A stretch of DNA of 64,000 bases from Hyphomicrobiales bacterium (GTDB lineage Bacteria; Pseudomonadota; Alphaproteobacteria; Rhizobiales; Xanthobacteraceae). Under the pieces are notes generated by a model. That model had not been told where the DNA came from. It saw only the letters and a program-made list of their open reading frames with translations, and did no database searches. This document shows, one piece after another, positions 16,621-33,300 of the stretch. The stretch's first letter is position 1; each line of letters opens with the position of its first letter. Position numbers and translations under genes: made by a program. Where the stretch lies: assembly GCA_017305665.1 (NCBI GenBank), contig JAFKKH010000007.1:248001-312000 (forward strand), written 5' to 3'.

Positions 16621-16638
16621 TCCCATCTAAGAATGGGA
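16621..16638 (+). promoter_or_regulatory. Inverted repeat over the ribosome binding site of the PanE-like gene
   Basis: TCCCAT (16621-16626) pairs with ATGGGA (16633-16638) across the six-base loop CTAAGA. In the transcript this stem would cover the GGGAG Shine-Dalgarno that lies six bases before ATG 16645. It may lower translation unless melted, or be an operator. Confidence 0.4.
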
Positions 16639-16644
16639 GAACAG

Positions 16645-17559
16645 ATGAAAATCGCTGTTGTTGGCGCCGGAGCCGTCGGATGCTACTTCGGAGCTCTGCT
16701 GGTCCGGGCCGGGCACGATGTCACATTCGTCGGCAGAAAACCCCATGTCGATGCAATCAACGCGCGCGGTCTCCTTCTTGAGATGAAGTCGCAAAACCAG
16801 CATTTGCACGCAACTGCGATAACGGACGTGTCGACGCTCGCGACACCCGAGCTCGTCCTGTTCAGCGTGAAGTCGGCCGACACCGAACGCGCCGGGGCCG
16901 CCCTCTCCTCGCGACTGGCTGACGATACGGTTGTCCTGAGCCTGCAGAATGGTGTCGACAATCCACAGCGCCTTCGTACCGTCATCAACGGTCTCGTCAT
17001 TCCGACTGTGGTCTACGTCGGCGCAGAAATGGCCGGGCCGGGCCATGTCAAACATCACGGGCGCGGAGAGCTGGTGATTGGGTCCTCTCCGCGGAGCGAG
17101 GCGCTGGCACAAACACTGGAAGCCGCCGGCATTCCAATCACCATCGCCGACGACATCGAAAAGATGCAGTGGATGAAGCTCGTCACCAACTGTGCCTATA
17201 ACGCCCTGTCGGCGGTGGCGAACATCGCATACGGCCCGATGGCCGAAGTCGAGGGAGCGAACGAGTTCGTCGCCAGCGTGGTCGAAGAATGCGTCGCGGT
17301 CGCACGTGGAAGCGGGGTGACCCTGCCGGACGATATGCTCGAGCAGGCAGCGAAAATTCCCGCCGCGATGCCTACGCAATTTTCCTCGACCGCACAGGAC
17401 CTCGCTCGCGGCAAACCTACCGAAATCGATTTCCTGAACGGCTTCGTGGTCCGAAAGGGAGTCGAGCTTGGCCTTCCAACACCAAGCAATTTCGCGCTTC
17501 AGGTCATGGTCAAGCTGGCGGAACGTGGCAGAGCGATTTCACTCGCAGCAAAAGCCTGA
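16645..17559 (+). CDS. Ketopantoate reductase family (PanE/ApbA) oxidoreductase
   Basis: The 304-residue protein starts with the NADP-binding MKIAVVGAGAVGCYFGALLVRAG and shows the family pattern through LQNGVDN, KMQWMKLVTNCAYNALSAV and the C-terminal TEIDFLNGFVVRKG. Biosynthetic PanE reduces 2-ketopantoate; catabolic clusters often contain paralogues of uncertain substrate. ATG 16645 is preferred over the in-frame ATG 16633 because the ribosome binding site GGGAG lies between them. It follows the RraA-like gene by 132 bp on the same strand. Confidence 0.85.
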   Translation: MKIAVVGAGAVGCYFGALLVRAGHDVTFVGRKPHVDAINARGLLLEMKSQNQHLHATAITDVSTLATPELVLFSVKSADTERAGAALSSRLADDTVVLSLQNGVDNPQRLRTVINGLVIPTVVYVGAEMAGPGHVKHHGRGELVIGSSPRSEALAQTLEAAGIPITIADDIEKMQWMKLVTNCAYNALSAVANIAYGPMAEVEGANEFVASVVEECVAVARGSGVTLPDDMLEQAAKIPAAMPTQFSSTAQDLARGKPTEIDFLNGFVVRKGVELGLPTPSNFALQVMVKLAERGRAISLAAKA

Positions 17560-17667: not shown

Positions 17668-18372
17668 TCAACTCCGTGAATAAAAACTGACCTTGACCGG
17701 CTGATCCAATGTCCCGCCGAAGCGAACAAACAATTCGTCGAAGCGTCGCCTCACCTCGGGCGTCCTGACTTGATGATCCTTATATTCGTTGATCCGTGTT
17801 TTGGCACACATGCGAGCAACAAATGCCTCGAAGCTGGAAAATATCCGGCGCTCCGTATAGAGAAATGTACGCATTTCTCCGAAACCAGATTGCAAATAAT
17901 CGCGCATCGCCCTGGCAGCATCCGCTCGCGCTTGCGTTTCATCATGAAACGGTTCGATCAAATACTGGAAGGGTCCTTTGGTTATCGGCTCCGCAACGTA
18001 GAGTTTCCCGCCCTCACGAAGCAATCTTCGAGTTTCACTGAGACTGGCTTCCAAAGCTTGTCGTGGAACATGGTGCAGCGAAAAAACAAAACTCACAACA
18101 TCGAACGAGGCTGACGGCATCGGAATCGCTGCTGCAGACGCTCGCACAAGCTCGGCTGGATGGCCGGGCACAAGATGAGGGTCGATGCCGGTGGCGTGTG
18201 CACCCAGCCTGATCAACTCCCTGACGATCGTTCCATCACCGCAGCCGACGTCGAGAATATCCAGGCCAGAAACATTTCCGACAATCTGAAGCAGCGCTTC
18301 CAAATTGCTCAGGCACCCCAAGCTATCAGCGGACTCGTCCGTTCGAATGACTGAATCTTGCAACTGCGACAT
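17668..18372 (-). CDS. Class I SAM-dependent methyltransferase
   Basis: The 234-residue protein has motif I LDVGCGDG, an acidic turn GIDPH, and the FDVVSFVFSLHHV post-motif typical of Methyltransf_11 proteins. The start at 18372 follows GGGAG. It is transcribed leftward, toward the PanE-like gene, and is separated from the LysR gene by 38 bp on the same strand. Nothing identifies the substrate, and no neighbour clearly needs methylation. Confidence 0.85.
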   Translation of the reverse strand: MSQLQDSVIRTDESADSLGCLSNLEALLQIVGNVSGLDILDVGCGDGTIVRELIRLGAHATGIDPHLVPGHPAELVRASAAAIPMPSASFDVVSFVFSLHHVPRQALEASLSETRRLLREGGKLYVAEPITKGPFQYLIEPFHDETQARADAARAMRDYLQSGFGEMRTFLYTERRIFSSFEAFVARMCAKTRINEYKDHQVRTPEVRRRFDELFVRFGGTLDQPVKVSFYSRS

Positions 18373-18410
18373 GCAGCATCTCCCAGACGACACAGGCCTG
18401 ATCCTCGCCG

Positions 18411-19331
18411 TTACCGCTTCCGTAGCTTCCGTGACGACAAGGCACTGAGATATCGGGTTTCCGCCTTGATGTGACCAGCCATCAGTTCGCAGGCATTGGT
18501 GATCTCATCCCTTGGCTGCCGAAACATCGCATATTCCATCATGATTGAAGGTTCGAAGGCTCTGATCACATATGTTTCGTCAACGGGATTGCGGACAAAT
18601 GGATGAACAATCGAAAGGCCGAGGCCTGCGCCAACCAACTGGCACATGACTTCAGTATTATGGCATTCAAACTGCATGACTCGAGTGATGCCAAGTCGCT
18701 CGAAAACATCATCGACACGCTGCCGCAAGAGGGTCTCTCGCCGTGCCGAGATAAACGGAATTCCAACCAGATCTGATGCTTGAATGACTTTTTTTCTGGC
18801 AAGAGGATGCTTCGCCGGAACCACACATATTGCAGGCAGCGCACCCAACGTTTCTATCGTCAACGAAGGCGGTGATTTCACCGGCAATGTGGCCAGCGCA
18901 ATATCGAACTGTCGCTCGTGAATAACTTCCTCAAGTCGCGCCCGGTTCAGAACGTCGATCGTAATTCTGATCTTGGGATGAGCCTCGGAAAACGAGGCGA
19001 TCGCGGTTGGAATCAAGCTATTGACTAGGCCATAGATCGAGATGATCCTGACTTCGCCTTTGGGATCTCTTCGAAGGCTTTCAGCGACGCTGCCGAGCTC
19101 CCGCATCGATGACAGGACTTCTTCGGCCTTTTCGTAAAAGCGCACCCCTTCTTCCGTCAGACGTACCCGTCCGCGGTCGCGCCGTAAAAGCTGGCACCCG
19201 ACTTCCTCTTCGAGTTGCATAATCAGACGGCTCATCGCGGGTTGTGTCACCCCGAACAATTCGGATGCCGCCGTCATTGTGCGACTCGACAGGACATAGT
19301 TGAGCGCCTGCAACTGCCGAAGCCGGATCAT
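18411..19331 (-). CDS. LysR family regulator
   Basis: The 306-residue protein begins MIRLRQLQALNYVLSSRTMTAASELFGVTQPAMSRLI, a LysR winged helix, followed by a ligand-binding domain (EVRIISIYGLVNSLIPTAI, FDIALATLPV, FISARRETLLRQRVDDVF). ATG 19331 is preferred because GGAAGG lies nine bases upstream, while ATG 19340 directly abuts it. It is divergent from the CoA-transferase gene. The 48-bp element directly upstream recurs in the control region of the glutamate-mutase operon, so this protein is the likely common regulator. Confidence 0.92.
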   Translation of the reverse strand: MIRLRQLQALNYVLSSRTMTAASELFGVTQPAMSRLIMQLEEEVGCQLLRRDRGRVRLTEEGVRFYEKAEEVLSSMRELGSVAESLRRDPKGEVRIISIYGLVNSLIPTAIASFSEAHPKIRITIDVLNRARLEEVIHERQFDIALATLPVKSPPSLTIETLGALPAICVVPAKHPLARKKVIQASDLVGIPFISARRETLLRQRVDDVFERLGITRVMQFECHNTEVMCQLVGAGLGLSIVHPFVRNPVDETYVIRAFEPSIMMEYAMFRQPRDEITNACELMAGHIKAETRYLSALSSRKLRKR

Positions 19332-19345
19332 CGTTTCCATCCTTC

Positions 19346-19393
19346 CATACCATGTCAGATATAAAAGCATCAGAATTTCGTATTTTACAACAT
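19346..19393 (-). promoter_or_regulatory. 48-bp control element, copy A
   Basis: On the minus strand this stretch starts with ATGTTGTAAAATACGAAAT and ends with TGGTATG. The first 19 bases and the last seven are identical to 28837-28884, and 37 of 48 positions match with the same spacing. It lies in the divergent region between the LysR gene and the CoA-transferase gene. A LysR binding site is the simplest reading. Confidence 0.7.
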
Positions 19394-19464
19394 TCGACGC
19401 CTCCCTATCGTAAAGGCGTGAAGACATGATCAACAGTCTTCCGACCACTCGTGTGGAGCAATGG

Positions 19465-20757
19465 ATGAATACGAATAAAAGCCGAGTGAACGGCACTGGG
19501 CCTCTGGTCGGCTATCGTGTTCTTGAACTTGGCTCGACCGCAGCGGGCCCTTTCTGCGCGCGCCTGCTCGCCGACTTCGGCGCGGACGTCATCAAAATCG
19601 AAGCCCCCGAAGGTGATCCCATCCGCAAGCTAGGTCAGCAAATCGATGGCAAGTCACTTTATGCTGCGAGCATTTGCCGCAACAAATCGATTGCTTCGCT
19701 CGATCTGAGAAAGCCGGCAGCTCAATCGCTCCTTCGAAAACTCGTGCCGAATTTTGATGTGGTCGTCGAGAACTTCAGACCGGGCACCCTTGAAAAATGG
19801 GGTCTGGGCTATGAGCAACTCAAAAAGATCAAGCCCGATCTGATTTTTACGCGGATCAGCGGGTTTGGACAAAGTGGACCGTACAAGGATCGTCCCGGTT
19901 ACGGAGTTATCGGCGAGGCGATGAGCGGACTGCGTCACCTCATCGGCGATCCGGACCGCCCCCCTTCTCGCGTTGCGATGCCACTGACCGACTATATCAC
20001 AGGCTTGTATGCCGCCTTCGGAACCATGCTGGCCCTCCTTGCGCGCGAGAAGAGCGGAAGCGGCCAGATTGTGGACGTTGCCTTGATCGATGCCGCTTTC
20101 AGCTTCATGGAATCTTATGTTCCGAGCTATGAAAAAACCGGCGCGATCGGAATGCGAGCCGGCAGCCGGCTTCCGAATAGCGCTCCCAACAATCTATACG
20201 TCACCAAGGACAAGAAATTCATACACGTCGCAGCACTCGCCGATAACGTTTATCGGCGTCTCGTCAACGCAATGGGCATGCCTCAATTGGGTTCCGATCC
20301 TCGCTTTGCCGAGCAGAACATCAGATCCGCGCACGAAGAAGACATCGACGAGATCATCGGAAACTGGACCCGGGCACATGATCTTGAAGAAATCGAACGC
20401 GTTCTGGATGCGGCCGGAGTGCCGGCCAGCCGCATTTTCACCATGGAAGATATCTTTCGTGATTCACACTACCGCCAACGCGACATGCTGCTCAGCGTGC
20501 CCGACGACGACCTTGGAAATGTGACCCTCGCAGGCGTCGTGCCGAAACTGTCGGCGACACCGGGAAGCGTGGCGTGGTCCGGACATCGAACCGGCCAGGA
20601 CACCCGCCCAATCCTGAAGCGATTTTCCGATCTCACCGATGACGAGATCGACCAGCTCGAACGCGACGGCGTGGCCTTTTGCGATCGGTCAACCGACGAC
20701 GGCCCCACACGTCCAGACGCCCTTCTCAACGCCGGCGGTCAGCAGGAACGACTGTAA
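19465..20757 (+). CDS. Type III CoA-transferase (CaiB/BaiF family)
   Basis: The 430-residue protein shows LVGYRVLELGSTAAGPFCARLLADFGADVIKIE and ISGFGQSGPYKDRPGYGVIGEAMSG, and the probable catalytic Asp176 in AMPLTDYITG. ATG 19465 has GGAG six bases upstream; ATG 19426 (13 residues longer) is an alternative with AAGG. Its stop overlaps the next start by one base (TAATG). It heads the operon with the AcuI-like reductase and the tripartite transporter, so it probably activates the imported acid to a CoA ester. The succinyl-CoA:mesaconate transferase of the methylaspartate route belongs to this same family. Confidence 0.9.
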   Translation: MNTNKSRVNGTGPLVGYRVLELGSTAAGPFCARLLADFGADVIKIEAPEGDPIRKLGQQIDGKSLYAASICRNKSIASLDLRKPAAQSLLRKLVPNFDVVVENFRPGTLEKWGLGYEQLKKIKPDLIFTRISGFGQSGPYKDRPGYGVIGEAMSGLRHLIGDPDRPPSRVAMPLTDYITGLYAAFGTMLALLAREKSGSGQIVDVALIDAAFSFMESYVPSYEKTGAIGMRAGSRLPNSAPNNLYVTKDKKFIHVAALADNVYRRLVNAMGMPQLGSDPRFAEQNIRSAHEEDIDEIIGNWTRAHDLEEIERVLDAAGVPASRIFTMEDIFRDSHYRQRDMLLSVPDDDLGNVTLAGVVPKLSATPGSVAWSGHRTGQDTRPILKRFSDLTDDEIDQLERDGVAFCDRSTDDGPTRPDALLNAGGQQERL

Positions 20758-21770
20758 TGAAACCCTTCAAGGCATTTCGCGTTCATACAGTCCATGACAA
20801 GCCGGAGTGCAGGTTTGAACAACTGACGCTTGATGAGATCGATAGCGGCGATGTTCTGATCAAGACGGCTTTTTCCGCAATAACCTACAAGGACGCGATG
20901 GCCGCGCGAGGCGTCGGCAAGAACGTCCGGACGGACCGGCCCTGTGTGACCGGCGTTGATTTGTCGGGCGTGGTCGTCTCTTCCATCGACGACCGCTTCC
21001 GCGAAGGCGACCATGTCGTCGTCACGAATTACAGCCTCGGCACCACGCATGACGGCGCCTATGCCGAATATGCCAGGGTTCCAGCCGACTGGATCGTGCC
21101 CTTGCCGAGCCAGTTGTCACTTTATGAAGCGATGGGTCTGGGAACGTCTGGGCTAACAGCCGCGCTGGCGGTGGAGAGATTGGAGCAAGCCGGCCTCAAA
21201 CCGTCCGATGGAGCGATCGCGATCACGGGTGCAACGGGCGGCGTGGGAAGCCTGGCAATCAACATGTTCGCTCGCAAAGGCTTCGAGGTGGTTGCCATCT
21301 CGGGCAAGAAAGACCAGGAAGCCTTTCTCCGCGATATCGGCGCCGCCAGGGTCATGTCGCGAGAGGAGTTGCTGACGAACCGCGCACCGCTTGCGCCGCC
21401 TCTTTTCGCAGGTGCGCTGGACAATGTGGGGGGAATATATTTTGACCGGCTGGCCGCAAGATTGCAGCCTTACGGCAAACTCGCCATCGCAGGCATGGCA
21501 GTCGGCGCCGAACTAACAACCACGGTTCTGCCCTGGGTTCTCCGGGCGATCGACGTGCTCGGCATCAACGTATCCCGTCAGTTGAAAATGGATCATCGCA
21601 GGCGGTTGTGGGAGCGCATGAGCAGCGACCTCAAGCCAACTCGCTTGGCTCAAATATCGCGTCCGATCGCCTTCGAACAACTCGACGGATCAATGGATCG
21701 GTTTTTCGACGCGACAACAATCGGACGGGTTGTGGTGGAGGTTGGATCAAAAGCACCCTACCATAGCTGA
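20757..21770 (+). CDS. AcuI/YhdH-family zinc-free MDR oxidoreductase (acryloyl-CoA reductase-like)
   Basis: The 337-residue protein has the AcuI/YhdH pattern: ITYKDAMAARGVGKNVR, CVTGVDLSGVVVSS, HDGAYAEYARVPADWIVPLP, and the NADPH-binding ITGATGGVGSLAIN. Known members reduce acryloyl-CoA to propionyl-CoA with NADPH, removing a toxic unsaturated CoA ester. Here it overlaps the CoA-transferase by one base, which suggests that an alpha,beta-unsaturated acyl-CoA forms in this pathway. The true substrate may be a larger enoyl-CoA. Confidence 0.88.
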   Translation: MKPFKAFRVHTVHDKPECRFEQLTLDEIDSGDVLIKTAFSAITYKDAMAARGVGKNVRTDRPCVTGVDLSGVVVSSIDDRFREGDHVVVTNYSLGTTHDGAYAEYARVPADWIVPLPSQLSLYEAMGLGTSGLTAALAVERLEQAGLKPSDGAIAITGATGGVGSLAINMFARKGFEVVAISGKKDQEAFLRDIGAARVMSREELLTNRAPLAPPLFAGALDNVGGIYFDRLAARLQPYGKLAIAGMAVGAELTTTVLPWVLRAIDVLGINVSRQLKMDHRRRLWERMSSDLKPTRLAQISRPIAFEQLDGSMDRFFDATTIGRVVVEVGSKAPYHS

Positions 21771-21814
21771 GAATCTGAATAACAAATTCGACCAGAACGA
21801 CCAGGGAGGACACG

Positions 21815-22768
21815 ATGCGCATTTTAAGTGCCACAGCGGCAGCGCTCTCGCTATGGGCCCTTGCCTCACACGTCGCAGCGGCAGAATCCCCGGAACACTA
21901 TCCGTCAAGACCCGTTGAATTCATCGTGCCGTGGGGCGCAGGTGGTGGCTCGGACCAGACAGGACGTGAGCTGTCAAAACTACTCCAGGCCCATTTCAAT
22001 GTACCGTTCCCGATTGTGAATGTGCCGGGCGGCACGGGCAATGCCGGCATGATCAAGATGCTCTCGGCACCCGCCGACGGCTACTCCGTTTCGCTGCTGG
22101 CCTGGGATACATTCGCGCTGCTCGCCAGCCGGCCTCCAAAATGGCATATGTCGGACCTGGTCACGCTGGGAATTGTCATTCAGTTGCCTTCGGGATTTTA
22201 CGTCGCCGAGGACAGCAAATTCAAATCGTGGGCTGACGTCGAGAAGGCGGCAAAGGCCAATCCCTCGGGACTCAAAGTCGCGATCTCCGGATTTGGAAGC
22301 CCTGACGATCTGACCATCCGGCAATTGGCCAAGAGCGGTGTTAGCCTCAAGGCTGTCCCATATGCCGAGCCGGGCGAGCGTTACAGTGCCCTGCTCGGGC
22401 ATCACGTCGATTTGCTGTATTCGCCGATCGGAAATATCGGAAATTTCGTTTCGGGAAAGCAGATGAGACCAATCTTGTTCTTTGGTACCGAACCGATCAA
22501 AGGATTCGAACAGATTCCAAACGCGAGGGATGTGGGCTATGATATCAGCCTGCCGCAACGGCGCGCTCTTGTCGTCAAGGCGGGAACGCCACCGGACATC
22601 ATCAAAAAACTTTCGAATTCGCTAAGCGCGGTCGTGGCGACGCCGGAATACGCCGCGTTTTTGAAGCGAGAACTAGCAAGCCCGGAAAGCTACGTTCCGA
22701 CCGAGGCAGCGTCGAAACTGATGGAGAGCGATCTCCAGGCCATGAAGAAAATGGCCGGCAAAAAATAG
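21815..22768 (+). CDS. tctC: Tripartite tricarboxylate transporter substrate-binding protein
   Basis: The 317-residue protein has a signal peptide (MRILSATAAALSLWALASHVAAA) and the Bug/TctC pattern HYPSRPVEFIVPWGAGGGSDQTGRELSK, with NVPGGTGNAGM after it. It should bind a carboxylate in the periplasm and pass it to the TctAB membrane proteins that follow. GGGAGG precedes the ATG. Paralogues bind citrate, tartrate, glutamate, terephthalate and others, so the ligand is open. Confidence 0.92.
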   Translation: MRILSATAAALSLWALASHVAAAESPEHYPSRPVEFIVPWGAGGGSDQTGRELSKLLQAHFNVPFPIVNVPGGTGNAGMIKMLSAPADGYSVSLLAWDTFALLASRPPKWHMSDLVTLGIVIQLPSGFYVAEDSKFKSWADVEKAAKANPSGLKVAISGFGSPDDLTIRQLAKSGVSLKAVPYAEPGERYSALLGHHVDLLYSPIGNIGNFVSGKQMRPILFFGTEPIKGFEQIPNARDVGYDISLPQRRALVVKAGTPPDIIKKLSNSLSAVVATPEYAAFLKRELASPESYVPTEAASKLMESDLQAMKKMAGKK

Positions 22769-22781
22769 GGAGTCATATCCG

Positions 22782-23432
22782 ATGGCGGATATCGACCTTT
22801 CTCCCTCCTCGTCCGATTTCAGGAAGCAGGTTTTGCGCGAGCAACAGGGCCAGAAAGCGCAAGCGGCGCCAATCTCCTGGCGTGCACGGCTGAATGCGGC
22901 CGCGCCCTACCTCCTGATCTTCGTGACCGGCGTCTTCCTTTATATCAACGCAGACAACATCGAATTCGACCGGGTCGAAGGGCGCATCGGGCCCGATCTC
23001 TGGCCGAAAATCATCCTGGGGTTGATGATGCTCTCGTCCGCATGGGGCATCATCAAAGCCGTACTCCTGATACCGGCAGGCGTCGAACAGCCGTCCTCCC
23101 CCCCGGAAGATGTCGAAACGGACCAATCTGCACATTCCGAAGCCGACGAGGGGGAGATCTACCCGCTTCGGGTGTGGGGAACGCTCGCAGGGACGATCGC
23201 TTATCTTTTTTTCCTGCCCGTATTCGGCTTCTTTTTAAGCAGCTTCTTTTTCATTGCTTTCGTGATTTTCCTTGGAGGTTACCGAAAGCCTGGCCGGGTG
23301 CTTGTGGTTTCGCTCATTACCAGCCTTTTCTTCACGGTCATTTTCGTTCGCGTTGTCTACGTCTCGCTGCCGATCGGCATTGAGCCGTTCGCCAAAGTTT
23401 CCTTGGCGCTCATGAAATTGATCAATCTCTGA
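22782..23432 (+). CDS. tctB: Tripartite tricarboxylate transporter small membrane subunit
   Basis: The 216-residue protein carries four predicted membrane segments, in two pairs: one in LNAAAPYLLIFVTGVFLYIN, one after GPDLWPKIILGLMML, and two long ones in the C-terminal half. The size and layout match TctB. It lies 13 bp after the binding-protein gene and 11 bp before tctA, completing a three-gene transporter unit. Confidence 0.88.
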   Translation: MADIDLSPSSSDFRKQVLREQQGQKAQAAPISWRARLNAAAPYLLIFVTGVFLYINADNIEFDRVEGRIGPDLWPKIILGLMMLSSAWGIIKAVLLIPAGVEQPSSPPEDVETDQSAHSEADEGEIYPLRVWGTLAGTIAYLFFLPVFGFFLSSFFFIAFVIFLGGYRKPGRVLVVSLITSLFFTVIFVRVVYVSLPIGIEPFAKVSLALMKLINL

Positions 23433-23443
23433 GGGAGTCGAGC

Positions 23444-24967
23444 GTGGAGACAATTCATCTTTTGTTCCAAGGTATCGTCCAGATCGTCACAGAAGGCTAT
23501 CTGACGATGCTGCTAATTGGCCTCATCGTGGGGATGGCCGTTTCCGTCATGCCGGGCTTGGGAATCGTGATGGGCATCGTTCTCGCGCTGCCATTCACTT
23601 ACACGATGAAGATCGAGCCATCCATCATCATGCTCACCGCCATCTACATGTCCGGCACGTACGCCGGCTGCTTTACGGCGATTTTGTACCGCATTCCGGG
23701 CGAACCAAACGACATCCCGATACTTTGGGACGGCTACCAGATGTCGCGCAACGGCAAGACCTCGGAAGCACTCGGCTGGGCGCTGATTTCAGCCTTTCTG
23801 GGCGGCATCGTATCCACCACATTTATGGTGGGCTTGGCGATTCCGCTTGGTAAGCTTGCACTGCAGTTCTCTACGGCTGACTATTTCGCAGCCGTGTTCC
23901 TTGGACTGACATCTGTGGTTTCGCTTGCGGGTTCGTCGATCAATAACGCCTTTATCGGCCTTTTTGTCGGCTTGATCATCTCAACCGTAGGCGTCGACAG
24001 CATTTACGGTTCAGAGCGATTTACATTTAATTTGGCAATTCTCGTGAATGGCATTCCGTATATCGCGGTTCTGGTCGGGATGTATGGTTTCGGTGAAGTT
24101 CTGACGCGCCTTGGCCGCAAGCCTGTCGATTTTTTCAGCAAGAGCGGCCCGGTCAAGACGAACACGCGATTTCCGAGATGGAAGGACATCTGGGAAATCA
24201 GAGGCACCTTTGTCCGCAGCACCATTCTCGGCACGCTGCTGGGAATCGTCCCGGGCGCCGGCGCAACCGTCACGTCGTTTATCGCTTACGGCATGGAGAA
24301 GCAGTACAGCAAACGGCGGACGCAGCTCGGAACGGGACTGCCGGAAGGCATCGTTGCACCGCAGATCGGATCGACGGCGTCGGTGGCGGGTCACATGGTG
24401 CCACTTCTGACACTCGGAATTCCCGGAAGCGGTGCCACGGCGATCATCCTCGCGGCCTTTCTGCTCCATGGAGTGCAACCTGGACCACTGTTGCTGGCAA
24501 CCGCGGAATCCAGAGTTACAGTTTATACGATTTTTGCTTCAATGTTTATCGCAGTTATCGGAATGTGCTTGCTGAGCTTTCCCTGGATACGCGTAGTCGT
24601 CCGGGTGCTCAGTATACCTCCCGCAATCCTCGCGGCGATTGTCATCATGTTCAGCCTGCTCGGAACATACGCCAATCGCAATAGCGTTACAGACATGATC
24701 ATCATCGTTGTATTCGGCGCACTCGGCTACTGCTTCGAGCGATTCAAATTCCCGATTTCGCCGCTCGTTCTCGGCGTAGTCCTCGGGCCACTCGCCGAAA
24801 GTTCTTTCATGCAAACGATGATAAGCCACGACAACAACTGGATGGCATTCTTCGACGGGCCCATCCGCGGAACTTTTATGTTTCTTTCCCTGATAGCATT
24901 GCTATTCCCGCTATTCAGAAACATGCACAAGCGAAGCTCCTTCGCCCACGCTGAAGCCATATCCTGA
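23444..24967 (+). CDS. tctA: Tripartite tricarboxylate transporter large membrane subunit
   Basis: The 507-residue polytopic protein has the TctA signatures LIVGMAVSVMPGLGIVMGIVLALPFTY and GTLLGIVPGAGATVTSFIAYGMEKQ, the duplicated GxxPGxG loops of the family, plus TLGIPGSGATAIILAAFLLHG. It starts with GTG at 23444, preceded by GAGGGAG. About 11-12 membrane helices form the sodium- or proton-coupled permease. It ends the plus-strand operon; the next genes are convergent. Confidence 0.93.
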   Translation: METIHLLFQGIVQIVTEGYLTMLLIGLIVGMAVSVMPGLGIVMGIVLALPFTYTMKIEPSIIMLTAIYMSGTYAGCFTAILYRIPGEPNDIPILWDGYQMSRNGKTSEALGWALISAFLGGIVSTTFMVGLAIPLGKLALQFSTADYFAAVFLGLTSVVSLAGSSINNAFIGLFVGLIISTVGVDSIYGSERFTFNLAILVNGIPYIAVLVGMYGFGEVLTRLGRKPVDFFSKSGPVKTNTRFPRWKDIWEIRGTFVRSTILGTLLGIVPGAGATVTSFIAYGMEKQYSKRRTQLGTGLPEGIVAPQIGSTASVAGHMVPLLTLGIPGSGATAIILAAFLLHGVQPGPLLLATAESRVTVYTIFASMFIAVIGMCLLSFPWIRVVVRVLSIPPAILAAIVIMFSLLGTYANRNSVTDMIIIVVFGALGYCFERFKFPISPLVLGVVLGPLAESSFMQTMISHDNNWMAFFDGPIRGTFMFLSLIALLFPLFRNMHKRSSFAHAEAIS

Positions 24968-25007
24968 TCCAGATGGATAAAGCAGCTTCCGGAACAGACC
25001 GTCGCGA

Positions 25008-25313
25008 TCATAGGATCGCAGCGATAAGATCCCACTCCGATGCATTCGATATATTTAACGACGGCTGCAACACAGCTTCTCTTGCCATGATGGCAACCTG
25101 ATCCGGCCCTATCTGGCGCACCACGGAGCGGCAAAATGGCCTGAAGCGATCAAGGTCTTGTGCTCCGAGGACGACGGCCGCAAAATAGCGGCGTACGCTG
25201 AGGCGATAATGCCCCAAGGCGATGCTATGCGCGAGAAGCTGGCGAGCCGCGTCAGCATCACCGGCGCGCGCTGCAGCCTTGAGGGTCTTCAGTTCTTTCC
25301 GGGACTGCTGCAT
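25008..25313 (-). CDS. Small hypothetical protein at the end of the mutase operon
   Basis: A 101-residue soluble protein with no recognised family. It starts four bases after the MutL stop and has AAGG before the ATG, so it is probably co-translated with MutL. Its composition is helical and slightly basic (AARAGDADAARQLLAHSI resembles a single helical repeat). A role as an accessory to the mutase or its reactivase is an inference from position only. Confidence 0.55.
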   Translation of the reverse strand: MQQSRKELKTLKAAARAGDADAARQLLAHSIALGHYRLSVRRYFAAVVLGAQDLDRFRPFCRSVVRQIGPDQVAIMAREAVLQPSLNISNASEWDLIAAIL

Positions 25314-25317
25314 GGCC

Positions 25318-26805
25318 TTACTCGCGTGACGCCCTCATATCTGCTGAAATGCTATTCCGCTCGCGTCCACCGGCTGTGATTTGCGGCGCCATTGATGACG
25401 AACTGACCAAAACCTGTTTTGCAAGGTTGAAAGCAATCTCCGGTTGATCCTCGGCAAGCAAGCCGATCGCATACAGCAGATACGAACGGTCAATCAGAAT
25501 ATCCGGATGCTCAGGCGCGAGCGACTGAGGTTCACCAGCGTCGGCAACCACGCCCCCTAATGCGAATTCGGCGTGATTTCCATAGGCAATGACCCCGCCG
25601 ACCCCGACGACTGTCGAGACAGCTCCGAGGTCTTTGCCATACTGCACCTGGGCGAGCCCGGCACCGGTGTAAACCTCCTTGACGAACCCGGCGTGCCGCT
25701 GAATCGCAATCCGGATAGCAGAATGCGCCATAGCTCCGTCCAGGGCTGCTTCTTTTTCATTGTCCGGAACGTAGTTGGGGTCGGCCGAGACCCGTTCCAC
25801 ATATGCGAGGACATCGGCTGCGGTCTGCGGGATCGAGCAGAGTTGCCGAGCAAGCGCAGCGATCGTTTCCACCCCGCTCCGCTCAACGATCGTGGCGGCA
25901 TTGATGCGTACCCCCAGATCGCCTTCCACGGTTCTTTTAAGAAACAGCTCGGGCAACCCACGCCGCAACACGCCGGGTCGGGTCGGCGCACCGTCAGTCG
26001 CTGAATGGATGTCGGTCGTTGCGCCTCCGATATCGACGATGATGACCTCACCAAAGCCCCTCTGACCCGGGTAACCTTCCGCAAGAAGCTGGCACGCCCG
26101 TAATACTGCAGCGGGGGTTGGAATAATTGGCGCCACCAGATTCACCTCATCGGAGATGCGCTCGATACCCTTGGCTTGCGTGATATGCTTGACGAACAAC
26201 TCGCGGATGAGGTGGTGAACCTCCTGAACCTCTACGCGATCGATTTCGGGTAAGATGTTGGCAGCTAGGGTAACGTTGCAGCCGGCGCTCAACAATATCT
26301 CCGCGCAATCTCCGGCTACGAACTGGTTACCCGCGACGATGATCGGACATCGGAGTTGCACGCGGGACAGCGCACGAGCGTTGTGGAGTATGGTTTCTTC
26401 ATCGCCACCATCGATGCCGCCTGCAAGCAGAATCAGGTCCGGTCTGGATTTCTCGAGCGCCGATAAGGCGGCCTGCGACATCTTGTGGCCGTAAGCGCCG
26501 ATGATCTTCGCGCCCGCCCCGAGCGCTGCGCGTTGCGCTGCCTCAAGACTCAAGCTCGGTACTAGACCAATGACCGCGACGCGGAGACCACCGGCGGCGC
26601 TGCTGCAAACCCGAGCTGGAATTCGGCTCATCGGCAACGCTGTCAGATGACTGAGCCCCAATAACACCGCCCGAAGCCCAATCGATACGTCAGTACCGAC
26701 CGTACTCGGCTCGTATGCGATCCCCAGAACCCGCCGCTCGGCAAGGTCGAACAAGCTGCCCTTGGTGAAGGTACTTCCAAAATCGATCGCAAGCGCAAGG
26801 TTCAT
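25318..26805 (-). CDS. mutL: Glutamate mutase reactivation/accessory protein MutL
   Basis: The 495-residue ASKHA-fold ATPase has the phosphate-1 loop LAIDFGSTFTKG and a second phosphate loop IIVDIGGATTDIH, and matches the MutL family that accompanies glutamate (methylaspartate) mutase. Such proteins are thought to release damaged cobalamin from the mutase using ATP; they are unrelated to the DNA-repair MutL. ATG 26805 is preferred to an in-frame TTG six bases upstream. It follows the small mutase subunit and shares its operon. Confidence 0.9.
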   Translation of the reverse strand: MNLALAIDFGSTFTKGSLFDLAERRVLGIAYEPSTVGTDVSIGLRAVLLGLSHLTALPMSRIPARVCSSAAGGLRVAVIGLVPSLSLEAAQRAALGAGAKIIGAYGHKMSQAALSALEKSRPDLILLAGGIDGGDEETILHNARALSRVQLRCPIIVAGNQFVAGDCAEILLSAGCNVTLAANILPEIDRVEVQEVHHLIRELFVKHITQAKGIERISDEVNLVAPIIPTPAAVLRACQLLAEGYPGQRGFGEVIIVDIGGATTDIHSATDGAPTRPGVLRRGLPELFLKRTVEGDLGVRINAATIVERSGVETIAALARQLCSIPQTAADVLAYVERVSADPNYVPDNEKEAALDGAMAHSAIRIAIQRHAGFVKEVYTGAGLAQVQYGKDLGAVSTVVGVGGVIAYGNHAEFALGGVVADAGEPQSLAPEHPDILIDRSYLLYAIGLLAEDQPEIAFNLAKQVLVSSSSMAPQITAGGRERNSISADMRASRE

Positions 26806-26832
26806 CGTCAATCCCGAAAGAGGATCATGGGG

Positions 26833-27306
26833 TCAACCGGCGAAACCGAGGTCCTTCTTGAGATCCGCGATAGCGGTTTCGGGTTTCGTCTGCGGAGGAT
26901 AGACCCTGTGAAACCCGTACCCTTTAAAGAGCGCTTCCGTTTCGTCCCATTGCTCGGGATCAGTTACAAGAATGCCCCCGAGATATAGCTTCACATGGCC
27001 GAGGCCTGCCTCCGCACACTTATCGCCAAAATCGGCGCAATCAATCCGTCCCATGCCGTACATCGATGACACCAGGATAGCGTCCGCCGCGCTTTCCTTT
27101 GCGGCTGTGATGAACTCTTCCGGCGGGACGATCGCGCCGAGAAAGACGACCATGAAACCTGCCTCCTCCAGCGCGAATCGCAGAACGGAGCTACCCACAA
27201 TATGCGCGTCATGACCGATCGTTCCGAGAACGATAACCGGCTGACGGCGCGGCCTCTCCAGAGCCGCAGCCGTCCCCGCCTGTGATTTGCTTTGTGCATC
27301 AGCCAC
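26833..27306 (-). CDS. mutS: Methylaspartate (glutamate) mutase small B12-binding subunit
   Basis: The 157-residue protein is a cobalamin-binding Rossmann domain with the base-off motif D33-x-H35-x2-G38 (GHDAHIVG), a conserved SSMYG loop (residues 80-84) and GG near residue 110. Classical GlmS proteins have about 137-155 residues. The chosen start is GTG 27306, which overlaps the mutE stop by eight bases; a longer reading from 27429 is just the mutE sequence in another frame. It should pair with the large subunit to carry adenosylcobalamin. This is not the DNA mismatch repair MutS. Confidence 0.9.
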   Translation of the reverse strand: MADAQSKSQAGTAAALERPRRQPVIVLGTIGHDAHIVGSSVLRFALEEAGFMVVFLGAIVPPEEFITAAKESAADAILVSSMYGMGRIDCADFGDKCAEAGLGHVKLYLGGILVTDPEQWDETEALFKGYGFHRVYPPQTKPETAIADLKKDLGFAG

Positions 27307-28774
27307 GTTCTGCAATCTCCTCGGCAAGAGAACGGGACGCCCAGGTGGCCTCCCGGACGATCCAGCTAATTCCCGCGCGGGAGTCCTCATTGCGTTCACG
27401 CTCTGAAATCCGGTCGCGGTGATACGCAACGACCTCCTTGGGCAACGGCATCAGTCCATGGTCGAGATAGCGAAGAGCTCCGTTGAAATCTCGCACAACC
27501 TTAACCTTGCTCTTCAGGAACTTGTAGGGCGAAAACATCGTGTCGAGCGCGCCTGAAAGGATCGCGCGGGCCCCGCCCAGCGCTAGGTCGCCGTTCCCAA
27601 GTTCAAGAACGCGATCCATGATGGCGCGAACTTCAAGTTCTAGCATCCTGCGCTCGAGCAAAAGCGCCTCCGATTCCGGCAAGCGCTGACCGGCGACCAA
27701 ACGAACGATCTGTCCGCAGATATGCAGACCTTCACGGAAACCTTCCGCTGTCGGAGTTGTGGTCGCTTCGTCGGGCGACTTGATGAACATCCCGTTGCAG
27801 CCGGCCAGGGTCGAAACCGCGGCGTTCCATGCCAGTTGCCCCGCCATCTGACCTCGGTTCAAGGGCCAGTCGCCAAGGAAAAAATACGTCCAGGAGAATA
27901 CCTTGACGTCCTTGTAGCCCATGCGGTCGAGGAATTCGCGGGACAAGCTTTTGAGAACCTGAATCGCAGCCACGTCCTGCACGAGATTCATTCCGATCCC
28001 CAGGCTGAGATCGATCCACTTCACGCCCTGTGCCGCGGACAACAAGACTTCCAGAAGGGAAACGGTGACCTTAAAGCCGAGCGAATCCCAACCTGGGAGA
28101 TTGGCCGATGCGCGGCGCAGAATGGGGACGCCACTTTCCGTGAAATGAGCCGCGAGACGGTCGATATACTGCTGATTATGAATATTCTTGTCGACGGGAT
28201 AGTCTCGCGAATGCTGGATCAGTTCCTCGATGCTCTTGATAGTTCCCCATGTCCAGCCGCCAGCGAGCGCGAACTCCCAAGGCAACCGCGCATCTTCATC
28301 GTTATTATCCGTGCCCACGGCCGCGCGCGTGGCCTCATTGACCGTGCGCGATCCGGCCACACCATGGGCCACGAGCGGATAGCCATTCAAATAGGAAAAG
28401 CCTTTGGCCCGGCTGCGTTCGACTGCGTCCTGCGCTTTGGCGTATTCGGATTTGCGTGTATATGTATCGGTGAGAACGTACCATCGCGCAGGCTGAAGAT
28501 CCTCGGAATGCCTGATGTGGTCAACGGTCTGTTCAACAAGCGCATGACCGACCTGAGGAACGATCTGGATCCGACCCTCCTCTTCGGCTTTTTCATTGCG
28601 AAGAGACGCATATTTCCACCAGGGCTGCGCCTTGTGATAGGCGATCGCTTCTTCAATCGATTCCGGGTGCTCGATTTCTTTTCCGGTGGGCCACAGGTTT
28701 ACCACCTTCCGCCGTTCGGCGAGGAAGTAATCCCAATCCCATTTTTTCATATTGAGATCGATACCGGACAGCAT
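27299..28774 (-). CDS. mutE: Methylaspartate (glutamate) mutase epsilon/large subunit
   Basis: The 491-residue protein has the GlmE pattern: VPQVGHALVEQTVDHIRHSE, YPLVAHGVAGSRTVNEATR, LSLGIGMNLVQDVAAIQVL, and FKVTVSLLEVLLSAAQG. The family rearranges glutamate to (2S,3S)-3-methylaspartate by a radical cobalamin mechanism. AGGAGG before the ATG at 28774 supports the start. No methylaspartate ammonia-lyase, the usual next enzyme, occurs in the window. The operon also holds mutS, mutL and a small gene, and its control region contains copy B of the 48-bp element. Confidence 0.9.
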   Translation of the reverse strand: MLSGIDLNMKKWDWDYFLAERRKVVNLWPTGKEIEHPESIEEAIAYHKAQPWWKYASLRNEKAEEEGRIQIVPQVGHALVEQTVDHIRHSEDLQPARWYVLTDTYTRKSEYAKAQDAVERSRAKGFSYLNGYPLVAHGVAGSRTVNEATRAAVGTDNNDEDARLPWEFALAGGWTWGTIKSIEELIQHSRDYPVDKNIHNQQYIDRLAAHFTESGVPILRRASANLPGWDSLGFKVTVSLLEVLLSAAQGVKWIDLSLGIGMNLVQDVAAIQVLKSLSREFLDRMGYKDVKVFSWTYFFLGDWPLNRGQMAGQLAWNAAVSTLAGCNGMFIKSPDEATTTPTAEGFREGLHICGQIVRLVAGQRLPESEALLLERRMLELEVRAIMDRVLELGNGDLALGGARAILSGALDTMFSPYKFLKSKVKVVRDFNGALRYLDHGLMPLPKEVVAYHRDRISERERNEDSRAGISWIVREATWASRSLAEEIAERG

Positions 28775-28836
28775 TTGTCCTCCTTGGCTGTGGCGGTTTC
28801 ACCGTCCTGATTATCGATACGATAGAATGCAGGACG

Positions 28837-28884
28837 ATGTTGTAAAATACGAAATATTGATGGTCGCATATCCAGTTTGGTATG
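28837..28884 (+). promoter_or_regulatory. 48-bp control element, copy B
   Basis: This plus-strand stretch repeats the element at 19346-19393: the first 19 bases (ATGTTGTAAAATACGAAAT) are identical and TGGTATG closes it at the same spacing. It lies between the mutE start (63 bp away) and the acyl-CoA dehydrogenase gene. In both copies the element points away from the catabolic operon and toward the divergent gene. Confidence 0.7.
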
Positions 28885-28932
28885 TTGACACAGCGACCTT
28901 GCAGAAGCTGCATTTAGCCGACGCCAAACGAC

Positions 28933-28950
28933 CATACCAATTGGAGTATG
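28933..28950. promoter_or_regulatory. CATAC-GTATG inverted repeat before the acyl-CoA dehydrogenase
   Basis: CATACCAATTGGAGTATG has CATAC/GTATG arms and shares the CATACCA half-site found, on one strand or the other, at the end of both copies of the 48-bp element. It lies 109 bp before the acyl-CoA dehydrogenase start and may be a second site for the same regulator. Confidence 0.4.
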
Positions 28951-29058
28951 AATTCATCCGGTTTTTGAATTTCCCCCAGATGCAGCCTGCGCTTATTCAC
29001 GAACTCCAGTGCGCATTGGCGAGAGATCATGCCAGAAGCGCGTGACAAGGGCTGCGCT

Positions 29059-30213
29059 ATGGACTTTTCCCTTACCATCGAACAGAAAATGATGGTCGAT
29101 GCTGCCAAACGACTGGTCGCGACCCACATTCAACCGATCCTTGATACCAACGATCGAGACAAGGGTCTGCCCAAGACCGCCATCCTTGCTATCATGGCGA
29201 AGGCCGCCGACCTTGGCCTGACCTGCGCGCGAATTCCAGAATCGGCCGGCGGTGCCGGCCTCAGCATGCTCGACTATGGACTGATCGGCGAACAAATCCC
29301 TCCATCGGTCGCGCTCATCCTGCAGCCGCACGAAGCAACGACAGCGCGCATTCATTTCGGCTGTTCACCCGAGCAAAAGGAAAGATATCTGACCGACCTG
29401 ATGGCGGGGCGGAAGATCGCCTGCACCGGCAGCACGGAGCCTGATGTCGGGTCGGATCCGCGCGGCGTCAAAACCAGAGTCACAGAGATCGGCGATGAGC
29501 TTGTCATCGACGGAAATAAGCTCTGGATATCCAACGCTCCGGTCTGCGACCTTATCAACGTGACATGCAGACGCGCCGACGACGGCGGAAATTCAAGCGT
29601 GGTTCGAGTTCTCGTCGATCGGAATGAATCGGAGTTCGAGACCCGTGAACTCGACATGCTCGGGTTGTGCCAGGCGCCCCTGGGGGAGGTCACTTTCGAC
29701 AATTGTCGCGTTCCCAAGCGGAACCTGTGTCCCGATACTGGCGATACCGCCAAGTTGTTGACGCTGACATGGCTGGCGAACCGGCCGCTCGTTGGATTGA
29801 TGGCTGTCAACCTTGCGCAAAAGGCGCTGGACGCCGCGCGCTCGTACGCCGGAATCCGAAAGCAGTTCGGCCGCTACATCGGCGGATTTCAGCTCGTTCA
29901 GAATGACCTCGCCGAAATTGAAACGGCTGTACTGACCAGCCGCCTCGTATGTTACAATGCACTTGCTGCGATCGACCGTGGCGAGCGAGCAAACGGACTC
30001 TCTGCTATGGCGAAGCGGTATGCCGTAGATGCTTGCGACCACGCCATTGCCCTTGCGATGAGAATTCACGGCGCAATCGGACTAAGTCGTGAATTGGGCC
30101 TTGAACAGATGGCACGAGATGTTCGTACGATATCGATCCCTGACGGGACGCCAGGCATCCTAACCTTGATTCAAGGACGTGAACTAACTGGGCTCGATCC
30201 ATTTCGCGGTTAA
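29059..30213 (+). CDS. Acyl-CoA dehydrogenase
   Basis: The 384-residue flavoprotein has the full domain order: N-terminal helices (MDFSLTIEQKMMVDAAKRLV), the FAD-binding segment MAGRKIACTGSTEPDVGSDPRGVKTR, a RKQFGRYIGGFQLVQ substrate/FAD contact, and a C-terminal MRIHGAIGLSRELGLEQMARDVR. ATG 29059 gives the normal opening; an upstream in-frame ATG at 29029 adds ten residues. It should oxidise an acyl-CoA to a 2-enoyl-CoA. It is divergent from the mutase operon and shares its control region, so it likely belongs to the same pathway. Confidence 0.92.
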   Translation: MDFSLTIEQKMMVDAAKRLVATHIQPILDTNDRDKGLPKTAILAIMAKAADLGLTCARIPESAGGAGLSMLDYGLIGEQIPPSVALILQPHEATTARIHFGCSPEQKERYLTDLMAGRKIACTGSTEPDVGSDPRGVKTRVTEIGDELVIDGNKLWISNAPVCDLINVTCRRADDGGNSSVVRVLVDRNESEFETRELDMLGLCQAPLGEVTFDNCRVPKRNLCPDTGDTAKLLTLTWLANRPLVGLMAVNLAQKALDAARSYAGIRKQFGRYIGGFQLVQNDLAEIETAVLTSRLVCYNALAAIDRGERANGLSAMAKRYAVDACDHAIALAMRIHGAIGLSRELGLEQMARDVRTISIPDGTPGILTLIQGRELTGLDPFRG

Positions 30214-30222: not shown

Positions 30223-30996
30223 TCATTCCGCGGTCCAGCCGCCATCGACAACCAATGACGCTCCAGTCATCAAGGCTGACGCGTCGCTCGCCAGGAAAAC
30301 AATGGCCCCCATGAGATCCTCGACCGTACCAAGCCGTCCGAGCTTGATCTTCGACAACACGGCTTGCTTGAACGCCGTGTTTTCAAAAAAAGGGCGTGTC
30401 ATCGGCGTCTCGATGAAGGTGGGGCAAAGCGTGTTCACGCGAATGCCGTGCGGCGCGAGATCGAGCGCCATCGCCTTCGAAAACCCCTCCATTGCCCATT
30501 TGGATGCGCAATAGAGTGTCCGGTTTGGGCCGCCGACGTGGCCCATCTGCGAAGACATATTGATGACGGAGCCCCGCACACCCGCTTCAATCATACGTCG
30601 CACCACCGATTGTGCCGCAAAGTACGCCGCCCTGACATTCAAGTTCATCACGACATCGAAATCCTCAGCCGAAACTTCGAGCAACGGATTCGGTCGATTG
30701 GTCCCGGCATTGTTGACAAAAATCTCGTAGGCTTTCCGAGCCTCGATCGCCTTACGGAACAAGTCCACATCCGTGATATCGAGCGCGAGCACGTCCGCAT
30801 CTGAACCTCGCTTGCGGATCGCAGCCGCGACCTCCTCGATTTCCCGCACAGTACGGGCACACAGGGTGACATGTGCGCCCGCATCTGCCAACGCGACCGC
30901 AGCGGCGCGCCCGATGCCTCGTCCCGCGCCGGTCACCAGCGCACGGCGGCCTTCGAGCCGGAACGATGGTGTCGACGGAAAGGGCTCGTCCGTCAT
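30223..30996 (-). CDS. Short-chain dehydrogenase/reductase
   Basis: The 257-residue classical SDR shows TGAGRGIG (cofactor loop), NNAG, the catalytic Ser in INMSSQMG and the YCASK tetrad segment, then [18 protein letters not shown]. It overlaps the HisD-like gene by four bases (ATGA at 30993-30996), showing operon membership and supporting this start. It should interconvert an alcohol and a ketone with NAD(P). It is the last gene of the cyclase/HisD/SDR operon and ends tail to tail with the acyl-CoA dehydrogenase. Confidence 0.93.
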
Positions 30997-32300
30997 TCCG
31001 CCGCGCTCGCATAGGGAATGTTGCGACCGCCATAGCGTCGAACGCGGATATTTGCCTGCTCGGCGTGACCGACAAAGCCTTCCAGCACACACAGACGCGA
31101 ACAGTATTCGCCAACCTTTGCCGATGCCTCGTCCGTCAGCACCCGCTGATAGGTACACGTCTTCAAAAACTTGCCGACCCAAAGACCTCCTGTATAGCGC
31201 GCGGCCTTCTTGGTCGGGAGCGTATGGTTGGTGCCAATGACCTTGTCACCATAGGCGACGTTGGTCCGAGGTCCGAGAAATAGCGCGCCGTAATTGGTCA
31301 TGTTGTTCAGGAAGTAATCGGGGTCACGCGTCATGACCTGAACATGCTCAGAGGCAATGGCATCCGCCTCCTTGACCATCTCATCCTCGGAATCACAGAC
31401 GATGACCTCCCCGTAATCTTCCCATGCTTTCGCGGCAATGGCGCCAGTAGGCAGGATTTTCAACAGCCGCTCAATCTCGGACATCGTTTCGCGCGCAAGC
31501 TTTTCCGAGTTGGTCAGGAAAATAGCCGGTGAATTAGGGCCGTGTTCCGCCTGACCGAGCAGATCGGTCGCACACATTTCCGCATCAACGGAGTCGTCGG
31601 CGATAACAAGCGTCTCGGTTGGACCGGCGAACAGGTCGATCCCGACGCGACCGAAGAGTTGACGCTTGGCTTCCGCAACGAAGGCATTGCCCGGCCCCAC
31701 CAGCATGTCGACCGCCGCGATGCTCTCTGTGCCGATCGCCATCGCACCGACGGCCTGAATGCCGCCAAGACAATAAATGATGTCAGCTCCCCCGAGATGT
31801 TGGGCGGCGACAATGGCGGCCGCCGGCTTGCCCTTGAACGGCGGCGCGCAGGTCACAATGCGGTTCACGCCAGCTACCTTCGCGGTGATAACCGACATGT
31901 GCGCCGATGCGACCATCGGATACTTGCCGCCGGGGACGTAGCTTCCGACGGAATTGACCGGGATATTCTTGTGGCCGAGCACCACGCCCGGTAGCGTTTC
32001 CACCTCGATATCCTTGAGCGCGGCACGCTGATGCTGTGCAAAGTTGCGGACTTGCGCCTGCGCAAACTTGATGTCATCGAGTTCGCGCGCGGACAACTGG
32101 GATAGGCAGTCCTTGATCTCCGTGTCGGTGAGGCGATAGTCCTTGCGATCCCACTGGTCGAACTTGACGGACAATTCCCGCACGGCCCCGTCGCCCCGCT
32201 TTTCGATATCGGCGAGAATGGTCTCGACGGTCGCACGAACCTTGGAATCATCCTCGGCGCGCTGCGCGGCATCCTTGCCGCGTTTGAGATACTTGGCCAC
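30993..32300 (-). CDS. Histidinol dehydrogenase family protein (catabolic paralogue)
   Basis: The 435-residue protein matches HisD in length and in key sites: [12 protein letters not shown], the zinc-binding Gln and His in [11 protein letters not shown], and IASEHVQVM with the Glu-His base pair. No other histidine gene is nearby. HisD relatives in catabolic operons, such as sulfopropanediol 3-dehydrogenase HpsN, oxidise other alcohols to acids with NAD. The start is a GTG at 32300 preceded by CGGAGA; a reading from 32411 overlaps the cyclase gene too far. The context of a cyclase and an SDR fits a substrate other than histidinol. Confidence 0.85.
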
Positions 32301-32331
32301 GATCGGTCTCCGATTTACATGCTCGCCATAT

Positions 32332-33282: not shown

Positions 33283-33300
33283 GCATTTACTTCCTTCTAT

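Follow-up and report, generated by a model that had tools for sequence, protein, structure and literature searches.

A predicted LysR-type catabolic regulon containing a glutamate-mutase homologue with an altered substrate pocket

We analysed a 64,000-nucleotide stretch of contig JAFKKH010000007.1 (assembly GCA_017305665.1, positions 248,001–312,000; hereafter the window) from a Hyphomicrobiales bacterium whose genome (G000; 5.0 Mb, 47 contigs) is 99.99% complete. Positions 18411–30213 of the window hold intact open reading frames (ORFs) for a glutamate-mutase-like set (mutE, mutS and mutL), the tripartite tricarboxylate transporter (TTT) TctCBA, a type III coenzyme A (CoA)-transferase, an AcuI/YhdH-family reductase, an acyl-CoA dehydrogenase and a LysR regulator. 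We propose, with a probability of roughly 0.7 judged from sequence, that this locus is one LysR-type catabolic regulon in which a re-specified B12 mutase would rearrange an imported carboxylate other than glutamate before CoA activation and oxidation. Among B12-dependent carbon-skeleton mutases, few take free acids as substrates, and members of the glutamate-mutase family are read by default as makers of 3-methylaspartate. A branch of this family with replaced glycyl-contact residues, held under purifying selection and joined to an importer and CoA enzymes, predicts a reaction and a catabolic route not yet described.

MutE is GlmE-type by sequence, and its partners MutS and GlmL lie above their NCBIfam methylaspartate-mutase equivalog cut-offs (Table 1), but MutE itself falls short of the corresponding equivalog, TIGR01503 (295.3 vs 390.1 bits). 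In glutamate mutase, R66, R149 and E171 hold the migrating glycyl half of the substrate and R100 and Y177 the acrylate half (PMC9545868). Comparison of MutE with GlmE, a check proposed in the initial annotation, revealed that all glycyl contacts are replaced (R66 by Q74, R149 by D156 and E171 by T178), along with Y177 (E184), Y181 (H188), E214 (R221) and F216 (S223). The four positions of the arginine claw (R66, R100, R149, E171) thus read Q, R, D and T in a pairwise alignment that is ungapped around 66, 100, 149–181 and 326–330. R100 (R107), K326 (K332) and E330 (E336) are kept; K326 and E330 belong to the adenosine side. On this alignment the MutE pocket is altered relative to that of GlmE, and the reading of the enzyme as a glutamate mutase fails. 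Because the glycyl contacts are lost, a different migrating group is predicted, and because R100 is kept, so is a carboxylate beside the radical carbon. Caution is warranted with the name 'methylaspartate mutase subunit E', which such genes receive by homology alone.

The initial annotation had noted that no methylaspartate ammonia-lyase lies at the locus, and this absence extends to the whole genome: G000 gave 0 MAAL_C matches, whereas all three positive-control records matched (E 2.8e-114 or better). MAAL_C matches in the genomes G798, G799 and G800 were weak and all below the cut-off. A MAAL_N search also found nothing, but its 14-genome control gave no match either, so that it carries no weight alone. 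One of the two options offered earlier, a glutamate route with its ammonia-lyase encoded elsewhere in the genome, was rejected on the strength of the failed TIGR01503 model, the replaced glycyl residues, the lack of a MAAL_C match and a CoA-transferase far from the mesaconate type. The other, a mutase acting on a different imported dicarboxylate, survives in part: a different imported acid is supported by the pocket, the co-inheritance with a TTT transporter and a shared upstream element, and a dicarboxylate is one possible identity for it.

The altered pocket recurs in related enzymes. A scan of genome contigs returned four MutE orthologues with 73–88% identity in their best segments, and type I comprises the window protein and those of a Bradyrhizobium metagenome-assembled genome (MAG; L009), a Rhizobiales MAG (L010) and two Betaproteobacteria MAGs (L011, L012). 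In GlmE numbering, D149, N150, T171, H181, R214 and S216 are invariant in all five members, Q66 and R100 in the four that are readable there (the N-terminus of L010 MutE runs off its contig), and position 177 is E in four and Q in L011. Among 38 aligned MutE rows, 3 are C-terminal only and 35 have a readable pocket. The full glutamate pocket (R66, R100, R149, E171, Y177, Y181, E214) is present in 19 of these 35, including relatives at 22–23% identity to the window protein. The remaining 16 comprise the five type I proteins, one type Ib (L037/L045), eight type II, L055 and a Fusobacterium protein (L017). Type II (Burkholderiales-like order; L041, L053, L054, L056, L057, L058, L060 and L061) combines R66, R100, L149, L171 and R214 with kept Y177 and Y181, and has no E171. 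In a tree of 34 rows (four short or C-terminal rows excluded; midpoint root for drawing only), types I, Ib and II together with L055 (14 rows) fall on one side of a branch with support 98/95; L037, L017, L019 and L043 sit on long branches.

Type I is rare, and among the samples scanned it was found only in the window genome and the genomes of L009–L012. None of 60 near relatives, including 8 of the same genus, gave a match to the window MutE. Wider samples, whose counts include the centre genomes themselves, gave 5/385 (class), 5/398 (phylum), 5/321 (class of G801), 3/340 (family of G798) and 8/240 and 8/240 (orders of G800 and G801, two samples that overlap in most genomes); the order of the type Ib genome G815 is represented by one genome only. 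Plasmid matches came from 15 records, 9 of which were fetched, and none exceeded 60% identity. When viral contigs were scanned with the MutE alignment, 172 stretches matched a pattern and none coded for a relative. Among the matches listed in a search of open-licence PMC articles, none dealt with GlmE-like enzymes that have a different pocket or are linked to TTT transporters.

Gene neighbourhoods link type I mutases to the transporter. mutESL lies beside TctCBA in four of the five members (the window, L009, L010 and L012). The fifth, L011, has a TctC-like gene ahead of mutE, and its contig stops within mutS. The Bradyrhizobium MAG holds the whole set within about 20 kb, rearranged relative to the window, with relatives of LysR, the acyl-CoA dehydrogenase, the CoA-transferase and the AcuI-type reductase beside mutESL and TctCBA (identities in Table 1). 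Co-inheritance of the mut and tct/CoA-transferase sets, on which the initial annotation had staked its proposal, therefore favours linkage, as the two sets are joint in this MAG and the same element precedes both. Eleven ORFs follow one another on the same strand in L012, separated by no more than 63 bp: an AMP-dependent CoA ligase, an enoyl-CoA hydratase, a binding protein, MmgE/PrpD, a second hydratase, mutE, mutS, mutL, TctC, TctB and TctA. Six of eight fetched type II stretches also have TctC matches; TctC paralogues are numerous in such bacteria, so that this link is weaker alone. Among nine canonical neighbourhoods inspected, the ammonia-lyase is adjacent in five (L013, L014, L015, L021, L051) and not in L016, L019, L050 and L070, and none of the nine has a Tct gene by annotation or tblastn (L013, being unannotated, by tblastn alone).

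Comparison of the window with the Bradyrhizobium MAG showed that MutE and other core genes are under purifying selection. Nonsynonymous divergence (dN) was far below synonymous divergence (dS) for MutE (0.084 vs 1.28), the acyl-CoA dehydrogenase (0.084 vs 2.03), the AcuI-type reductase (0.144 vs 1.65), TctA (0.111 vs 1.89), MutL (0.208 vs 1.93) and the CoA-transferase (0.20 vs 2.05). dS was saturated for MutS, TctC and TctB. TctB (dN 0.51) and a methyltransferase gene behind LysR (dN 0.48 vs dS 2.10) evolve more freely.

A 26-bp element (CATCANNATTTCGTATTTTACAACAT) sits behind a LysR-box-like palindrome before both the CoA-transferase gene and mutE, and the palindrome (CATACCANNNNGNNTATG) recurs, without the element, upstream of the acyl-CoA dehydrogenase gene (Table 1). 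The 19-bp core of the element occurs twice in the window, against 0.02 occurrences expected. Across whole genomes, with up to three mismatches allowed, the element has two sites in G000 and three in the Bradyrhizobium MAG (G798), all exact, and reversed-pattern controls gave 0 sites. The three sites in the MAG precede mutE, tctC and the CoA-transferase gene. LysR-box matches are enriched in L009 (19 vs 8.62 expected, a count reached in 0 of 100 shuffles). We infer that the LysR protein binds the shared element at these predicted sites.

In the mechanism we propose, TctCBA would import the acid, and MutE–MutS with adenosylcobalamin, serviced by MutL, would shift a group from one carbon of the free acid to its neighbour. 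If the enzyme works like GlmE, the kept arginine (GlmE R100) would bind the carboxylate adjacent to the radical carbon, and a migrating group other than glycyl would be held by Q74, D156, N157, T178 and R221. This would amount to a general conversion between X-CH(CH3)-COOH and X-CH2-CH2-COOH, with branched to linear the favoured direction for catabolism; X may be a further carboxylate bound by the new arginine, or else an unsaturated group such as an aryl. A linear product made in this way from a branched acid would suit beta-oxidation: the CoA-transferase would activate it and the acyl-CoA dehydrogenase oxidize it, in what we presume to be this order and direction, and the AcuI-type reductase may handle an acrylyl-type CoA intermediate. 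A single LysR protein, as putative binder of the shared element, would control the operons. TctC is a soluble binding protein, and its ligand should point to the mutase substrate.

Several observations weigh against this proposal. Of the four genomes searched for the element, G799 and G801, both with type I mutases, lack it at up to three mismatches, so that element-based regulation is not universal. LysR boxes are not enriched in the window itself (4 vs a mean of 2.21; 15 of 100 shuffles reach 4). Only in the window and the Bradyrhizobium MAG were CoA-transferase, acyl-CoA dehydrogenase and AcuI-type genes found close to the mutase. An AlphaFold model of MutE built from 5 sequences (mean predicted local distance difference test score 41.2) was too poor for pocket geometry and was left unused. 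Finally, the E-to-R change at GlmE position 214 introduces an arginine that might be able to bind a second carboxylate.

That last point underlies the strongest alternative, in which the substrate is a dicarboxylic, non-amino analogue of glutamate (for example 2-hydroxyglutarate, 2-methyleneglutarate or the glutarate/methylsuccinate pair) whose second carboxylate rests on R221. TTT transporters often carry di- or tricarboxylates, and the best NCBIfam models for the neighbouring enzymes are succinate-glutarate CoA-transferase and glutaryl-CoA dehydrogenase, all below cut-off. Type II, the sister group, lacks E171 but shares the new arginine at 214 and retains R66 and R100, and in three of its loci a muconate-cycloisomerase-like MR/MLE gene lies upstream of mutS; this superfamily also includes methylaspartate ammonia-lyase. 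Type I proteins, however, lack both glycyl-side arginines, one of which is now an aspartate, making a poor carboxylate site, and below-cut-off matches say little; we regard the dicarboxylate as possible, at odds well short of even. Alternatively, the migrating group could be aromatic or heteroaromatic, with a 2-arylpropionate converted to or from a 3-arylpropionate that enters hydrocinnamate-type beta-oxidation. Radical 1,2-aryl shifts are known chemistry, and the mutE of the nearest divergent relative, L045 (40% identity), is divergent from a run with a p-hydroxycinnamoyl-CoA hydratase/lyase and encodes a more hydrophobic pocket (V149, W214, F130). The window pocket is instead polar (D, N, T, R, S), none of the core genes was recognized as an aromatic-acid gene and L045 has no Tct match in its 17.9 kb, leaving the aryl shift unlikely.

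Two further explanations would deny the locus a new reaction or a joint pathway. MutE could be an ordinary glutamate mutase of the methylaspartate route, with its ammonia-lyase absent from the assembled sequence or its role taken by an unrelated enzyme, as would suit a clear GlmE homologue whose partners pass the methylaspartate-mutase cut-offs. We consider this very improbable in view of the MutE score on TIGR01503, the replacement of R66, R149 and E171, the missing MAAL_C match in so complete a genome and the CoA-transferase, which scores 237.5 vs 700 on the mesaconate model NF041294 and is 28% identical to the Ensifer copy beside an ammonia-lyase. Still more remote is a degenerate or passenger mutase set with no role in the Tct/CoA-transferase pathway: the rarity of the type, with no match in near relatives, would fit it, but MutE and core genes are under purifying selection, the new pocket is invariant across alpha- and betaproteobacterial MAGs, and the mutase shares both an element and its inheritance with the other operon. 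Beyond the catabolic regulon proposed for the window, we advance tentatively, with the odds somewhat against it, the wider idea that a proteobacterial branch of the glutamate-mutase family was re-specified, probably more than once, to yield B12 mutases whose substrates are non-amino carboxylic acids in free form; types I, Ib and II would all belong here, each coupled to uptake and to CoA-dependent oxidation. The window's type I would then open a new pathway that converts a branched free acid to a linear one ahead of beta-oxidation, and the migrating group might be an aryl or another group that is not glycyl.

Table 1 Genes and predicted regulatory sites of the locus (window coordinates; scores in bits)
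Feature	Position	Strand	Evidence
Class I S-adenosylmethionine-dependent methyltransferase	17668..18393	-	Pfam Methyltransf_11 57.6; 17 bases behind LysR, same strand
LysR-family regulator	18411..19496	-	Pfam LysR_substrate and HTH_1; 81% in L009
LysR-box-like palindrome upstream of CoA-transferase	19346..19363	+	2 mismatches to CATACCANNNNGNNTATG
26-bp element upstream of CoA-transferase-AcuI-TctCBA	19368..19393	+	CATCANNATTTCGTATTTTACAACAT; exact copy also before mutE
Type III (CaiB/BaiF) CoA-transferase	19426..20757	+	Pfam CoA_transf_3 400.3; 75% to L030 copy (Bradyrhizobium MAG)
AcuI/YhdH-family medium-chain dehydrogenase/reductase (MDR)	20679..21770	+	TIGR02823 359.8 vs cut-off 297.25; 82% in L030
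TctC, periplasmic binding protein of TTT transporter	21815..22768	+	PDB relatives; 78% in L009
TctB	22782..23432	+	Pfam TctB 69.6 vs cut-off 29.1
TctA	23444..24967	+	Pfam TctA 425.5 vs cut-off 28.9; 83% in L009
mutL/glmL, reactivase-type accessory protein	25318..26811	-	NF040745 513.1 vs cut-off 475; Pfam MutL 495.5
mutS, B12-binding subunit	26833..27429	-	NF002612 160.7 vs 110; TIGR01501 144.3 vs 135.8; PDB GlmS E 2.9e-39
mutE, GlmE-like catalytic subunit, rebuilt substrate pocket	27299..28774	-	PDB GlmE E 1.1e-76; Pfam Met_asp_mut_E 306.2 vs 26.6
26-bp element upstream of mutE	28837..28862	-	CATCANNATTTCGTATTTTACAACAT; exact copy
LysR-box-like palindrome upstream of mutE	28867..28884	-	Exact match to CATACCANNNNGNNTATG
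LysR-box-like palindrome upstream of acyl-CoA dehydrogenase	28933..28950	+	Exact match; box only, without 26-bp element
Acyl-CoA dehydrogenase family protein	29029..30213	+	Three Pfam acyl-CoA dehydrogenase domains; 86% in L009

The gene content named in the initial annotation was borne out by intact ORFs above family cut-offs, with TctC recognized by its PDB relatives. The picture of all genes lying around one LysR gene needed amending: the set does have a single LysR, located at the left end and divergent from the CoA-transferase gene rather than central. Comparison with L009 places the true LysR start probably near 19337, the reductase likely starts at about 20757, and the true start of mutS is probably downstream of the ORF start, as homology begins at about 27249. 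The Pfam B12-binding domain scored 51.8 vs a cut-off of 32.1 in the mutase set. The TTT transporter is complete, with TctA and TctB by Pfam and TctC, which has no NCBIfam match, by solved TTT binding proteins including BugD (E 1.8e-29 to 1.3e-8); these relatives point to no single ligand. The reductase meets only the wider TIGR02823 family, failing the AcuI equivalog NF051456 (270.7 vs 440), and the best NCBIfam model for the acyl-CoA dehydrogenase, GlutCoADH_Des, scored 199.3, below its cut-off of 470. For the CoA-transferase, the acyl-CoA dehydrogenase and the AcuI-type reductase alike, scores on the specific NCBIfam models inspected stay under the equivalog cut-offs, and hence no substrate was deduced from these families. 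Within the window, Rfam at gathering threshold gave no match, and so no known cobalamin riboswitch; scans for sigma-70 promoters (4 vs a mean of 5.8) and terminators (11 vs 13.0) were at chance level, and a tRNA scan found none.

The methyltransferase keeps its position in L009, where a 47% identical relative also follows LysR; a corrinoid-protein-associated methyltransferase is among its nearest models, at a score well under the cut-off. To the left of the locus, a minus-strand catabolic cluster (2664–17379) encodes an Asp/Glu racemase, an ATP-binding cassette (ABC) importer, MmgE/PrpD, a luciferase-like monooxygenase, a second type III CoA-transferase, a flavin reductase, a GntR regulator, a CitE-like lyase and an amidohydrolase. 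To the right (30223–43007) lie genes for a short-chain dehydrogenase/reductase, a HisD-like dehydrogenase, a cyclase-family hydrolase, a branched-chain-amino-acid-type ABC importer, a three-subunit molybdenum hydroxylase and a second LysR protein.

Relatives outside type I occupy varied surroundings. The type Ib locus (L045:1067-15426, G815) encodes a 40% MutE relative with the pocket Q66, V149, S171, E177, H181 and W214. Its mutE is divergent from a same-strand run comprising MmgE/PrpD, two pimeloyl-CoA-dehydrogenase-like genes (below cut-off), a CoA ligase, the p-hydroxycinnamoyl-CoA hydratase/lyase (410.8 vs 276) and a hydroxymuconic-semialdehyde-type aldehyde dehydrogenase (834.6 vs 693), a neighbourhood that hints at arylpropionates as type Ib substrates. 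The type II stretches (L046, L062, L063, L065, L066, L067, L068 and L069) hold eight MutE proteins with one common pocket. The MR/MLE enolase-superfamily genes upstream of mutS occur in L063, L066 and L068, and quinone-reductase-like MDR genes in L046, L062 and L066. The Fusobacterium vincentii protein (L017), a 24% relative, has another altered pocket (Y66, K149, D171, H177, F181). Full glutamate pockets occur in a Roseibium plasmid mutase (L016), beside an adenylation-domain protein and an aromatic amino acid lyase, and in a Methylobacter plasmid mutase (L019), near asparagine synthetase A and a B12-binding protein; both mutases probably belong to natural-product pathways.

Among known systems, the GlmES/GlmL mutase of Clostridium cochlearium (1cb7/1i9c/6h9e) shares with the window homologous MutE, MutS and MutL proteins, kept K326, E330 and R100 positions and a MutS that passes the equivalog. 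The window differs in the replacement of R66, R149 and E171, in gene order (E-S-L vs S-L-E), in a genome without an ammonia-lyase match and in the ties of its mutase to a TTT importer and CoA enzymes. The aerobic methylaspartate/mesaconate operon on an Ensifer adhaerens plasmid (L015) likewise has mutase genes, a CaiB/BaiF CoA-transferase and a LysR gene nearby, but it adds an ammonia-lyase and a CoA ester lyase, its pocket is canonical and its CoA-transferase is the distant copy noted above. Type II mutases resemble the window in the lost glutamate pocket, R214 and TctC matches (6/8), and depart from it in keeping R66, Y177 and Y181, in the order S-L-E and in the MR/MLE gene upstream in three loci. 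The Aromatoleum indoleacetate pathway (PMC8360864) unites a CoA-transferase (IaaL), a B12 mutase (IaaGH) and an acyl-CoA dehydrogenase (IaaF), the same enzyme-class logic within one catabolic route. IaaGH acts on a CoA ester, whereas GlmE-type enzymes act on free acids.

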